From: Methanolobus sp. WCC4
Lineage (GTDB): Archaea > Halobacteriota > Methanosarcinia > Methanosarcinales > Methanosarcinaceae
Assembly: GCF_038022665.1 (NCBI RefSeq)
Contig: NZ_CP150629.1
Span: 2,028,480 to 2,092,479, forward strand
DNA length: 64,000 bases
Reading direction: 5' to 3'
Of this stretch, positions 36,094 through 41,111 are shown in pieces. The notes under the pieces are model-generated. The model made no database searches. It was not told the origin of the DNA and was given only the letters and a program-made list of their open reading frames with translations. The position numbers and the translations under genes are program-made. The stretch's first letter is position 1; each line of letters starts with the position of its first letter.

Positions 36094-37370
36094 ATCAAAT
36101 TAGCTCATCTTTTTCTCCATTCTAATTTGACAAGCTTTTTCTCACACATAATTTGCAAATGAATTTGGATTTTTGACCTTGTTTTGCAAATTTGCAATCA
36201 GCATCAATTGATAAACAACAAAGTTCATGGTAACATAGAGTTCTCTGCTTCCTTTTCTGATTGATCTAACATCAAATTTGAGAATATGCTTCACATGCTT
36301 GTGAAACCTTTCACAATCTTGTCTTGTCCCTTTTTTCTTCTGGAATTCTGCATCCTCCATGTTCTGATTTCTTAGATACATTCCAACTTGCTTTGACCTT
36401 CCATGTTTGTAGAGGAACTTCAATTTTCTGTTAAGTGGAAAGTGGGGGTCTCCCCCACTTTTCCACATCTTGTTCATCCAATGATTGATTCTCTCTATTC
36501 TTCCTTCCTCACTGACAACAGCATCAGAAGGAAGGGATATTGTAGGATTCACATTAAGATCATTCCAGATATCTGCGTAGTTAGTGAATGAATCATATGC
36601 ACCATCCAAAGCATATGAATCAACTTCAGGATTCAATCTTTTCAAGAACTCAATATGCTGTTCCAGTTGTGGAGAATCATGTGCCAGTCCCTTTGTATAC
36701 GTCATGTACAATGGACAAGTTCCGATTAATGTGATATGCGCTTTATCCATTTTACAGTTATAATGCGGATTATAATCACTATGCTTGTCGTACCTAGAAG
36801 CTTCAATAGGTGTTGAATCTGTTTTTAGGTCCTTTGAAGATGTTAGATCTAGTATTCTCGAAGCTACTTTTTGCATTATTTCCCGGAATCCATTTTCTCC
36901 TAACCTGTATTTCACAAAGTGGTGAAGTGTTGCTCCAGTTGGCATTGAAATATCATCGTTCGTATTAACAAAACGAAGAAGCAGAGCTTCTTCATCTGTT
37001 AGCGATGAGATAGTTTTGTCAAATGAGAGTTTTCTGAAACACATGACAATGGTGAGTTTTATCATAGAAGAAACACGATACTTGAAATGCCAGTCTTTAT
37101 TGGAATAGTAGTTGTTTTCAACATGCTGTGCGATATCATCGATATTAAGAGAATGTAGCAACCGGCAAATTGACACATTATCTTTACCAACGTAGTTTCG
37201 AATGGAGTCCTCAAAGAGGACTCCTTTATACACAGTACAAATATCCTCCATGAGACTGGCCAAATTTATACTATATGAATCTATTGACCTAGCTACTGTT
37301 TTTTTTGGGGGGGGGGGCGAGGTCTTAAAGAAAAAAGAGGTAAGCTTTTAAGTCAAAATTCTAATTTGAT
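36094..37370 (-). mobile_element. Insertion sequence with DDE transposase
   Basis: Bounded by a 10-bp inverted repeat: ATCAAATTAG at 36094-36103 and CTAATTTGAT at 37361-37370, total about 1.28 kb. A further internal copy (CTAATTTGA, 36122-36130) lies near the left end. No target duplication is obvious, so the ends are provisional. A T8-G11 homopolymer run is at 37299-37317 between the gene and the right end. Confidence 0.65.
36142..37263 (-). CDS. DDE transposase
   Basis: A 373-residue transposase with an intact DDE triad layout: first Asp in LKTDSTPIEASRYDKHSDYN, second in SYALDGAYDSFTNYAD, Glu in RQDCERFHKHVKHILKFDVR. The order and the C-terminal YVTMNFVVYQLMLIANLQNK fit IS5/IS1182-like or related groups common in methanogens. 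The start is TTG at 37263 or ATG at 37251. It appears full length. The group assignment is uncertain. Confidence 0.85.
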   Translation of the reverse strand: MASLMEDICTVYKGVLFEDSIRNYVGKDNVSICRLLHSLNIDDIAQHVENNYYSNKDWHFKYRVSSMIKLTIVMCFRKLSFDKTISSLTDEEALLLRFVNTNDDISMPTGATLHHFVKYRLGENGFREIMQKVASRILDLTSSKDLKTDSTPIEASRYDKHSDYNPHYNCKMDKAHITLIGTCPLYMTYTKGLAHDSPQLEQHIEFLKRLNPEVDSYALDGAYDSFTNYADIWNDLNVNPTISLPSDAVVSEEGRIERINHWMNKMWKSGGDPHFPLNRKLKFLYKHGRSKQVGMYLRNQNMEDAEFQKKKGTRQDCERFHKHVKHILKFDVRSIRKGSRELYVTMNFVVYQLMLIANLQNKVKNPNSFANYV

Positions 37371-37653: not shown

Positions 37654-39765
37654 ATGTATGAACCCATCAGGAAACAAAAAGAGATATTAGAAGGGCTTAA
37701 GAAGGTCAATCCTGCTCTTGAGGTAAAATGGGATGAAAGGACCGGAAGTCCGAAAAGATTGAAAGGAATACTTACCAGTATCGGACAGCAGGACCCGGGC
37801 AGAGCTGCTTTCGACTTTATAGAAGCTAACAAGGGACTATTCTTATTAGATTCCGTTCAGAAGGAAATGGTCCTGAAAAGAATAGATACGGACAGGATAG
37901 GTGCAAAACATGTCCGTATGCAACAGGTCTACAAGGACCTGCCTGTATTCGGCAGCGAGCTCATTGTTCACATTGATGCCAACAGCAACATAAAGGGAAC
38001 CACTGGTAAACTGGTACCAGCTATCGATCTGCCTGATAAACCAAAGATAAGTGCTGAACAGGCGATGAAAGAGGTCCTTGGTGACCAGAAGGATAATGTT
38101 AAGAGCCATATCCATGCAGAGCCAAAACTCATGGTGCTGACCCAGTTCGTGGAAACACCGCATCTTGTCTGGCATGTGACCGTCAATGGTATGGACAAGA
38201 CACTTGCAGGTGATGATACACCTGCTAAATGGGAGTACTTTGTCGATGCACTGGATGGCAAGGTCCTCTGGAAGTTTAACAATGAACAGACACATACCAG
38301 CACCACGGGTTCAGGTATCGGAAGATACTCAGGAGCTGTTACTGTCAATACGGTACACGACCACGGTGCAGGAAATTACCTGCTGGAGGATCAGGGTGTC
38401 CCAACTTCTGCAAGGGTTGTCACACATGACGCAGACGGAGGATATCCACCTGCCGATGTTTCAGAGGATAATAATAACAACTGGTCAGCAGCAGCACAGG
38501 GACCGGATATCGACTGTCACCTCTACACGAGGATTGTCTTCGACTATTTCTTCACCGTACACGGACGTGACAGCTATGATGATGCCGGTGCCGACATGCA
38601 CATCTATGCGAACTGTGGTACCGACTGGAACAATGCATCCTGGAACGGCAGTTATGTCAAGATAGGAAACGGAGACGGAATACGCTACAGCCCTCTATGT
38701 GCACTTGACATCATTGCTCATGAGTGGACACATGCTGTGACCGAGTACACCGCCGGCCTTGTCTATAGCGGGGAATCGGGTGCCCTGAACGAATCCATGT
38801 CCGATGTATTCGGTTGCCTTATCGCAGGTAACTGGCTCTTCGGAGAGGATGCATGGTTGCTGGCTTCCGCACCTGGATCACGTAACCTTGAAGACCCGAC
38901 AAACGGAGGTCAGTATGACCCGACTGATCCTATAGACAGTGTTATTGCAGGTCATCAGCCGGACCATATGGACGATAAGTATACCGGTACAGCAGACTAT
39001 GGCGGAGTACACATAAACAGCGGTATAATGAACAAGGCCGCTTACCTTATCGCAACAGGTGGTACACACAGAGGTATCAGGATATGTGAAGGGCTAGGAA
39101 ACGATGTGCTTGGACTCCTGTATTACCAGGCGCTTACAACACACCTTGTCTCAAGTTCCGATTTCAGTGACATGAGAGATGCGGTACTGGATTCACTGGA
39201 TGACCTCTACTCGACCAACCCGCACTATTCCCGCTGGAGAGCAAGCATCATAAATGCATTTGCTGCTGTGGGTATCGGTACGGCAGTCACATGCCCGATA
39301 ACATGCTGGATAGCACCATTCATCTGTCCACCATCACCACATCTGGTATGCCCTCCATCACCTCGTTTCATGTGCCCGCCGGCACCGTATATCTGCCCGC
39401 CTGCACCTGACTTCGTGTGCCCACCATCTCCTATGATTGTATGTCCACCATCGCCATATGTTGCATGTCCACCGTCACCGGGGCTTTCCTGTCTGCCGGG
39501 ACCTGACCCACTGCCATATACACCTGAGATACGTGTGAGACATCCTGTCATCTCATTGAAGACGGACATAATAGAGATAGTCGGAATCGGTCCTGAGATC
39601 GCTGCACTCTTCAAGGCAAGGTCGATCTCGACCCTTGGTGAGTTCCTTAAGGCAACAGAGAACAAGAAGAACATCTCTGAACTTTCAGAGACCCTGGGCA
39701 TCTCAGCCACAAGGATCAACGACTGGAGAAAGAAGACACTGGTATTGCTTGGAGAAGTTAAGTGA
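37654..39765 (+). CDS. M4 (thermolysin-family) metallopeptidase with ten-cysteine Pro-rich repeat and helix-hairpin-helix tail
   Basis: A 703-residue zinc protease. Residues about 30-200 are FTP/PepSY-type propeptide. The catalytic domain has H356-E-W-T-H360, Glu380 (NESMSD) and His453 (GGVHINSG), matching thermolysin zinc ligands and the catalytic His. There is no signal peptide: it starts MYEPIRKQKEI. Residues 547-613 are a repeat of C-P-P-[SA]-P-x2-3 with ten Cys at 7-8 residue spacing. A DUF4332-like helix-hairpin-helix domain follows (IVGIGPEIAALFKARSIST). GGGGGAAG and TAGGGT precede the ATG. Its stop overlaps the GTG of the radical SAM gene. The Cys-rich segment is not part of known M4 enzymes that I recall. 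Confidence 0.9.
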   Translation: MYEPIRKQKEILEGLKKVNPALEVKWDERTGSPKRLKGILTSIGQQDPGRAAFDFIEANKGLFLLDSVQKEMVLKRIDTDRIGAKHVRMQQVYKDLPVFGSELIVHIDANSNIKGTTGKLVPAIDLPDKPKISAEQAMKEVLGDQKDNVKSHIHAEPKLMVLTQFVETPHLVWHVTVNGMDKTLAGDDTPAKWEYFVDALDGKVLWKFNNEQTHTSTTGSGIGRYSGAVTVNTVHDHGAGNYLLEDQGVPTSARVVTHDADGGYPPADVSEDNNNNWSAAAQGPDIDCHLYTRIVFDYFFTVHGRDSYDDAGADMHIYANCGTDWNNASWNGSYVKIGNGDGIRYSPLCALDIIAHEWTHAVTEYTAGLVYSGESGALNESMSDVFGCLIAGNWLFGEDAWLLASAPGSRNLEDPTNGGQYDPTDPIDSVIAGHQPDHMDDKYTGTADYGGVHINSGIMNKAAYLIATGGTHRGIRICEGLGNDVLGLLYYQALTTHLVSSSDFSDMRDAVLDSLDDLYSTNPHYSRWRASIINAFAAVGIGTAVTCPITCWIAPFICPPSPHLVCPPSPRFMCPPAPYICPPAPDFVCPPSPMIVCPPSPYVACPPSPGLSCLPGPDPLPYTPEIRVRHPVISLKTDIIEIVGIGPEIAALFKARSISTLGEFLKATENKKNISELSETLGISATRINDWRKKTLVLLGEVK
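39292..39492 (+). repeat. Codon-level repeat encoding the C-P-P-x-P cysteine array
   Basis: A 21-24 bp repeat (core TGYCCRCCR, followed by TCACC or GCACC) encodes Cys residues 547, 551, 558, 566, 574, 581, 589, 597, 605 and 613 of the protease. Seven units read C-P-P-[SA]-P; outer units are diverged (CPITC, CLPGP). Confidence 0.85.
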
Positions 39766-41111
39766 GCAACTTGAAAAACAGTCCGGGAGATGATCCCGGA
39801 AACTTTTCTATTTCAGATAGCTTTGAGCTTGTGCCATATTTCCCCTTCCGCATCAACAAAGAGGATGAACTATGGGTCATCAGGAACCCCCTGACCGGAC
39901 AGGAGAACGAACTGAACGAGGCCGCCTTCTGGATGCTCAAACTCTGCGACGGGTACAGGACACTTGATGAGATCATCAATGACATCTCCACCGCCTACCG
40001 GACCGACAGTGACACCGCATATGCCATGAGTGCACCCCTGCTTGAGAAACTCACCGGGGACGGAGTGCTATGGTGGCGCAAAGGAAGACTGAACTACTGG
40101 AAAGTACCTGCACCTGCCGGTGTTCTCTGGGACCTTACTTCAAGATGTAACCTCAGATGCAAGCACTGTGTCGTAAGTGCAGGAGAAGCAGGCAGGGATG
40201 AACTAAGCCTTGATGAATGCCACAGGCTGATAGACCAGTTCGCAGAGTTCGGTATCGGACAGCTTATCCTCAGCGGTGGTGAGCCAATGGTAAGAGAGGA
40301 CTTCTTCGATATTGCTGAATATGCTACTGAAAAAGGACTTCTGATACAGGTAGCCACCAACGGAACCCTGATAGATGAAAGTGCAGCACAGAGACTTGCC
40401 AGTATAGGAGCATCTACACAGGTGAGCTTCGATTCATCCGAGCCTGCCATCCATGATGATTTCAGGCAGCACTCTGGTTCGTGGCTGAGAACGAAGAAAG
40501 GTATAGAGCATCTGAAAAAGGCAGGTGTTCCTGTCACTCTAGCCGTGACAGTGACCACCATGAACATCGATGATGTCCCGCATATCTATGAAATGGCAAA
40601 GGACATGGGAGTGCAGACATTCCGCATACTGCCTTTTGTACCATTTGGACGTGGGAAGTACGCTGATGAACTGGAAGTATCGCCGGCGAGAATGGGTGAA
40701 CTGACAGAGTTCCTGCATTCTAAAAGGGATGAGGACGGTCTCAACATTGCACCAATGGAGTTCGAATGTACTTTCAGCCCTCCACCAGAACAGGGAATAG
40801 ATAATGATACCAGAATAGGATGTGACGGAGCCATATCATACTGTACTGTGAATTCAAGTGGAGAGGTACTTCCATGCAACTACTTCTCAGGAGCAGATGC
40901 AGAGAATATCAGGGAACATGATTTCAGATGGATATGGGACAATTCCCGTTTCCTCAACTATTTCAGGAGCCTGAAAGCAACTGACGTGAAGGGAAGCTGC
41001 CAGGAGTGTAGCTGGCTTCCTGTTTGCAGAGGAAGCTGTATTGCCGCCAACTTTGCACACGGGGACATGTTCCAGTCGAACTGTCACTGCTGGCTGGTTA
41101 ATGAAAAATGA
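39762..41111 (+). CDS. PqqD-fused radical SAM/SPASM peptide-modifying enzyme
   Basis: A 449-residue enzyme. Residues about 21-105 are a PqqD-like peptide-recognition domain (FELVPYFPFRINKEDELWVI, then LNEAAFWMLKLCDGYRTLDE). The radical SAM barrel has C129-x3-C133-x2-C136 (TSRCNLRCKHC) and the GGE motif (LILSGGEPMVRED). The C-terminal SPASM domain holds CTVNSSGEVLPCNYFSG and CQECSWLPVCRGSC. This layout is that of PqqE-like and RiPP maturases that cross-link or otherwise modify peptides. The GTG start overlaps the protease stop (GTGA), so the two are translationally coupled. No separate small precursor peptide is visible, which makes the protease tail the prime substrate candidate; that is inference. 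Confidence 0.9.
   Translation: MSNLKNSPGDDPGNFSISDSFELVPYFPFRINKEDELWVIRNPLTGQENELNEAAFWMLKLCDGYRTLDEIINDISTAYRTDSDTAYAMSAPLLEKLTGDGVLWWRKGRLNYWKVPAPAGVLWDLTSRCNLRCKHCVVSAGEAGRDELSLDECHRLIDQFAEFGIGQLILSGGEPMVREDFFDIAEYATEKGLLIQVATNGTLIDESAAQRLASIGASTQVSFDSSEPAIHDDFRQHSGSWLRTKKGIEHLKKAGVPVTLAVTVTTMNIDDVPHIYEMAKDMGVQTFRILPFVPFGRGKYADELEVSPARMGELTEFLHSKRDEDGLNIAPMEFECTFSPPPEQGIDNDTRIGCDGAISYCTVNSSGEVLPCNYFSGADAENIREHDFRWIWDNSRFLNYFRSLKATDVKGSCQECSWLPVCRGSCIAANFAHGDMFQSNCHCWLVNEK

Follow-up and report, generated by a model that had tools for sequence, protein, structure and literature searches.

A Cys-repeat tail on an M4 peptidase as the candidate substrate of an adjoining PqqD-radical SAM-SPASM enzyme in Methanolobus

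In Methanolobus sp. WCC4, the gene for a peptidase with a repetitive Cys- and Pro-rich tail overlaps the gene for a PqqD-radical SAM-SPASM protein, which raises the question of what this radical SAM (rSAM) enzyme acts on. The pair lies in the window, the 64,000-nucleotide stretch of DNA that was analyzed here (positions 2028480-2092479 of a 2.85 Mb single-contig genome). The tailed M4 (thermolysin-type) peptidase ORF occupies 37654..39765 of the window (703 aa; zinc motif HEWTH plus NES in the sequence), and the PqqD-radical SAM-SPASM ORF, which encodes the proposed tail maturase, occupies 39762..41111 (449 aa; GTG start). Both ORFs and all of the features within them are on the plus strand. 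The protease stop and the rSAM start share the GTGA at 39762..39765, from which we infer translational coupling; the exact coordinates confirmed the overlap that the preliminary description had reported. A 4-base overlap of the same kind joined the carrier and rSAM genes at seven other Methanolobus loci and at L081, one of the eCIS-linked loci considered below, and many of the carrier/rSAM junctions across the loci followed here were four-base overlaps. Just upstream, at 36142-37263, the minus strand contained a transposase-like ORF, and a similar fragment was present upstream of the pair in L011.

The M4 protein contained FTP and PepSY propeptide domains (residues 71-205; 37864..38268; Pfam PF07504, E 5.5e-13, and PF03413, E 4.9e-6) and M4 catalytic domains (residues 218-541; 38305..39276; PF01447, E 9.3e-28, and PF02868, E 2.1e-36). 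In particular, the Pfam limits were 71-118 for FTP, 131-205 for PepSY, 218-364 for Peptidase_M4 and 367-541 for Peptidase_M4_C. The catalytic domains scored above the Pfam cut-off and carried both HExxH (HEWTH) and the downstream Glu (NES), which placed the protein among the M4 peptidases. No signal peptide was evident upon inspection by eye. At the C-terminus, there was a helical, HHH/DUF4332-like domain (residues 640-703; 39571..39762; helices at a pLDDT of ~80), which the structure model of the M4 protein placed at ~643-702; its Pfam match as a helix-hairpin-helix was weak (DUF4332, E 0.048, below the cut-off of that family). The structure models were weak overall, with mean pLDDT values of 63 and 50, and their details were not used. 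The 14 M4 orthologues showed 79-91% identity, and the match from M. profundi was 91% identical at the protein level.

The Cys-repeat tail, which is the proposed rSAM substrate, comprised residues 551-617 (39304..39504) and contained nine C-x-x-[S/A/G]-P units. The ten-Cys, Pro-rich array noted in the preliminary description was indeed present within residues 547-617, with one Cys in CPIT followed by the nine of the repeat. The units were mostly CPPSPxxx or CPPAPxx(x), and the last one, CLPGP, was followed by the helical C-terminal domain. The tail was modeled at a pLDDT of 22-28, which fits disorder within a model that was weak as a whole. Upon alignment of the 14 orthologues, we found that all nine Cys columns and all 27 Pro columns of the tail were invariant; the Cys codons switched between TGT and TGC, the spacer positions varied, and Ser and Ala exchanged at Cys+3. 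One or two extra repeat units were present in three of the 14. A DNA pattern encoding two CPPxP units in succession matched the window genome only in the tail (six overlapping hits), and a control pattern gave 0 matches in the same genome. In the window and the long loci, 17 ORFs contained at least four motifs, all of them carriers of the tail, and no other ORF had three; this count of 704 ORFs of at least 150 aa describes those loci, which were chosen around the module, and not a genome-wide rate. A chance array was rejected on the grounds of the invariant Cys and Pro with codon switching, the genome pattern search and the ORF motif count. Judged from its sequence, the array is far beyond chance, and the tail is selected for.

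The rSAM protein contained a PqqD-like (RRE) domain (residues 31-102; 39852..40067; PF05402), which was modeled with three strands and three helices, a radical SAM core with CxxxCxxC at 129/133/136 (residues 125-278; 40134..40595; PF04055, E 2.6e-26) and a SPASM domain with seven invariant Cys (residues 354-443; 40821..41090; PF13186, E 1.2e-7). The Pfam limits were 50-102 for PqqD (29.3 bits; cut-off 23.4), 125-278 for Radical_SAM and 354-416 for SPASM. PF05402 was matched in all 11 aligned rSAM rows (alignment A1), and the CxxxCxxC motif and the Cys of the SPASM auxiliary clusters were invariant in the alignments of 11 and 12 rows. The solved proteins closest by sequence were SkfB, PqqE and CteB, and the folds nearest to the rSAM model, which was of moderate quality, were those of SkfB, CteB and SuiB.

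Among 27 Methanolobus genomes, the tailed protease and an adjoining full-length rSAM gene were found together in 14, and neither was found in the other 13; the reading of the two genes as a coupled pair was supported. This co-occurrence is weak evidence when taken alone because neighboring genes are inherited together. No conserved separate small ORF that could be the short dedicated precursor with a leader and a core, as expected of a RiPP, was found at the Methanolobus loci, which agrees with the earlier remark that no small precursor ORF is visible near the pair. The conserved small ORFs at these loci overlapped the flanking SfsA-like and symporter genes, mostly in antisense, and were rejected as a separate precursor.

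When relatives of the rSAM enzyme at 29-40% identity were traced to their loci, the gene directly preceding them was found to encode a different tailed protein in each group. An S8 subtilase preceded the rSAM gene in two Methanosarcina-type genomes (L077, L078/L079), with tail units of CLRGPIQ or CPPAPKI/CPPGPIR. In four genomes of another family, which is probably Methanoperedens-type, this position was held by a CarboxypepD_reg protein (L080-L083, L191) whose complete copies measured 1171-1395 aa and whose units included CLAGKPDNTIT and CPAGQPDTP; these loci also held Baseplate_J, Tail_P2_I and eCIS_core genes, and we refer to the protein as the eCIS-linked carrier. A protein of 318-350 aa preceded the rSAM gene in three genomes from three families (L199-L201), with units such as CRTGLPD and CAAGP, and the rSAM enzymes of this type gave no Pfam match for the PqqD domain. 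Two of the genomes (G158 and G044) had contig ends that cut inside the repeats, and the pairing there rests on matching carrier halves. The system is therefore wider than the M4-specific arrangement originally envisaged, as the tail and the rSAM partner also occur with an S8 subtilase, with a 318-350 aa protein and with non-protease carriers of the eCIS-linked type.

Several side observations concern these carriers. The 318-350 aa protein was considered as a clan CD peptidase from a likeness by eye of HYDHG and SCQSASG, and this assignment was rejected in the absence of a supporting Pfam or PDB sequence match. On visual comparison, a 105-aa protein adjoining the rSAM gene of L077 (7506-7823) looked similar to the N-terminal domain of the S8 carrier, and it is possibly a free propeptide or inhibitor. 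An M36 fungalysin-type protease with an FTP domain was present in the eCIS-linked loci (L080:3516-5027, by Pfam; L081:8695-10206, alike by eye), where the tailed carrier is not itself a protease. eCIS_core (PF13699) gave no match in the window genome or in any Methanolobus, and an eCIS link for the window pair was rejected; it was found only for the L080 type of locus.

The motif common to all carrier tails was Cys-x-x-[Gly/Ala/Ser]-(x)-Pro. A small residue occupied Cys+3 at 130/130 tail Cys in the M4 proteins, 24/28 in the S8 carriers and 64/65 in the eCIS-linked carriers. The Pro was mostly at Cys+4 in the M4 and S8 tails (130/130 in the Methanolobus proteins) and at +5 in the eCIS-linked tails. 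Apart from the Cys and the nearby Pro, the position at which every type showed a restriction was +3, which was limited to Gly, Ala or Ser.

Tailless homologues were compared for three carrier types, namely M4, S8 and eCIS-linked. The M4 relatives from other genera had at most one motif, and no such rSAM gene was present in the short loci read around them. An M4 protein from a Calothrix MAG was 61% identical over residues 1-548 and had an unrelated repeat tail, and that genome contained no full-length rSAM relative; it was the only close M4 protein among 245 cyanobacterial genomes of one order, the one bacterial order sampled, and sampled for the protease only. The tail of this protein (L015:6001-8286) consisted of GTIGTKIATYKWTEGWTT units, and gene transfer or misbinning is possible. 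Neither the motif nor an rSAM neighbor was found for the S8 relatives of two other genomes, which were read as 485 and 461 aa, and the tail and the rSAM gene were both lacking from four loci that encode the eCIS-linked carrier's N-terminal domain. In a further genome of the family (L204:10065-15095, G157), a tailless M4 homologue with no evident signal peptide was located near eCIS_core genes; M4 proteins of this kind may be eCIS cargo.

A profile of all four types was then compared with 238 genomes of the class. It recovered 23 members at 610 bits or more (14 + 2 + 4 + 3), several of which were themselves profile rows, and each had a large carrier encoded directly upstream. One further member scored 418 bits (G202) and was the only relative found from outside the profile rows, and AhbD-like paralogues reached at most 297 bits. 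The G202 enzyme (L235:8536-10335, G202:C115) was more distant, full-length and outside the order. Upstream of it there was no long tailed carrier; a frame of ~110 aa with one CVVGGP and two unknown bases was present, which may be a small precursor, and thus a separate precursor at the edge of the family, or a product of chance, and it was counted neither way. In the phylogenetic tree, the 17 sampled module rSAM enzymes were split by a 100/100 branch from the AhbD-like rows, which formed a narrow outgroup. Each carrier type formed its own group (93/93 for M4 and 100/100 for the others), and the eCIS-linked and 318-350 aa types joined at 80/93 with a long-branch warning. The first rSAM profile found no member outside the order in a phylum sample of 393 genomes at E 1e-85. 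Spread by viruses or plasmids was rejected: in viral contigs, the rSAM profile matched partial relatives only, and no tail ORF accompanied any of them; the CPPxP pattern matched 81 viral stretches, none of which encoded a protein with four motifs; and the plasmids contained ordinary M4 proteins and known rSAM families only.

Because rSAM genes of this family accompany the Cys tail on four carriers that are unrelated to one another, and are absent beside tailless homologues, the tail is the best candidate substrate, which strengthens that part of the preliminary description. We consider it very probable that the Cys-repeat tail is modified by the rSAM enzyme, and we assign a probability of roughly 0.7 to the reading that this enzyme is a dedicated maturase of the tail on the protein encoded just upstream. 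The conserved module would then be the tail and its maturase, with an interchangeable carrier (M4, S8, 318-350 aa or eCIS-linked CarboxypepD_reg). Translational coupling would ensure that the rSAM enzyme is synthesized along with its substrate, the PqqD-like domain would hold the carrier, and the radical SAM core would abstract hydrogen at each repeat. Within each Cys-x-x-[Gly/Ala/Ser]-(x)-Pro unit, the Cys would be joined in a thioether, likeliest to the +3 alpha-carbon in a sactionine-like manner, and the flexible Pro-rich tail would become a chain of small rigid rings. The chances that the product is a Cys thioether are about even. The sactionine-like link is a guess based on the alpha-carbon being the C-H site shared by Gly, Ala and Ser, the residues to which +3 is restricted, and an acceptor at this position is proposed only tentatively. 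Similarly, it is a speculative suggestion that modification serves to make the tail stiff and resistant to proteolysis; the use may be such a tail or a releasable peptide. No recognition element common to the carriers was found outside the tail. The idea that the helix-hairpin-helix C-terminus serves as one was abandoned, as the other carriers end differently and the segment is not conserved across them.

Known systems share parts of this arrangement. SkfB, CteB and PapB, the maturases of sactipeptides and ranthipeptides, have an RRE/PqqD-type domain, a radical SAM core and a SPASM domain, as does the window rSAM, and SkfB and CteB make Cys thioethers. The precursors of these peptides have a Cys core with repeated spacing, like the tail here; however, the substrate proposed here is a tail on a protein of 300-1400 aa and not a short precursor, and the window rSAM scored under the curated cut-offs (96 bits for the NCBIfam PapB model, cut-off 340). 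anSME is a SPASM rSAM enzyme with a related core that acts on a full-size enzyme, as is proposed here, although its target is one catalytic Cys or Ser residue within a fixed motif, with no repeat tail and no PqqD domain. The PapA core required by PapB is Cys-X3-Asp (PMC8172795), whereas the Cys-x-x-[GAS]-(x)-Pro motif has no acidic acceptor, and Cys-X3-Asp/Glu was not found. A tailed protease with an rSAM partner had no precedent in the families searched or in the open-license literature.

The tail could alternatively be part of a self-processing RiPP, in which the carrier is both precursor and maturation protease, the rSAM enzyme modifies the tail, and the protease domain frees the peptide or peptides. 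At least two of the carriers, unrelated to each other, are peptidases whose catalytic motifs are intact. There is also a parallel in the maturation of quinohemoprotein amine dehydrogenase (QHNDH), where the rSAM enzyme QhpD makes Cys thioethers in QhpC, an enzyme subunit, and the subtilisin-like protease QhpE trims this product (PMC7876137). Both systems would combine an rSAM enzyme acting on an enzyme component with the involvement of a subtilisin-like protease, but the protease and QhpC, a small subunit that carries a 28-residue leader at its N-terminus, are distinct proteins, whereas the tail here is fused to its carrier and repeated. The S8 carrier matched the QhpE model weakly (54 bits; cut-off 165). 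Against release, the tails of the M4 and S8 carriers are preceded by the catalytic domain and followed by a conserved C-terminal segment, and the eCIS-linked carriers are not proteases. We regard self-processing as unlikely, and equally so its wider form, archaeal self-processing peptides in which a clade-specific RRE-rSAM cross-links Cys-x-x-[GAS]-(x)-Pro cores on interchangeable proteases that release them.

It is improbable that the Cys-Pro array stays unmodified and binds metal or forms disulfides, with the rSAM enzyme acting elsewhere and shared regulation explaining the adjacency. Cys arrays often bind metals, and modification of the tail is itself a proposal. However, an rSAM gene goes with the tail on four different carriers and is not found next to tailless homologues, there is no further conserved small ORF in the vicinity, and the spacing of the Cys reflects a peptide unit in which a small residue is fixed at +3, not CxxC pairs. 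It is highly improbable that the enzyme is an AhbD/NirJ-like heme or porphyrin enzyme whose Cys-Pro units bind heme: AhbD and NirJ2 were the top-scoring NCBIfam families for its core and Cys-Pro dipeptides are known heme-binding motifs, but the scores were far below the cut-offs, at less than half of the curated values (232 of 500 bits for the AhbD heme b synthase model, TIGR04545), the genome encodes a separate AhbD-like paralogue, the PqqD domain is extra, and Cys-Pro is not kept in relatives (CLRGP, CRTGLP, CLAGKP).

If the tail is indeed the substrate of a dedicated maturase, RiPP-type radical chemistry acts on the tails of full-size proteins, and a modifiable tail moves among proteases that are unrelated to one another and a protein of an injection system. 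None of these loci would be found by genome mining that looks for short precursor peptides. The module would provide a motif that can be tested in methanogens amenable to culture, and rSAM chemistry would gain a natural repeat tag.
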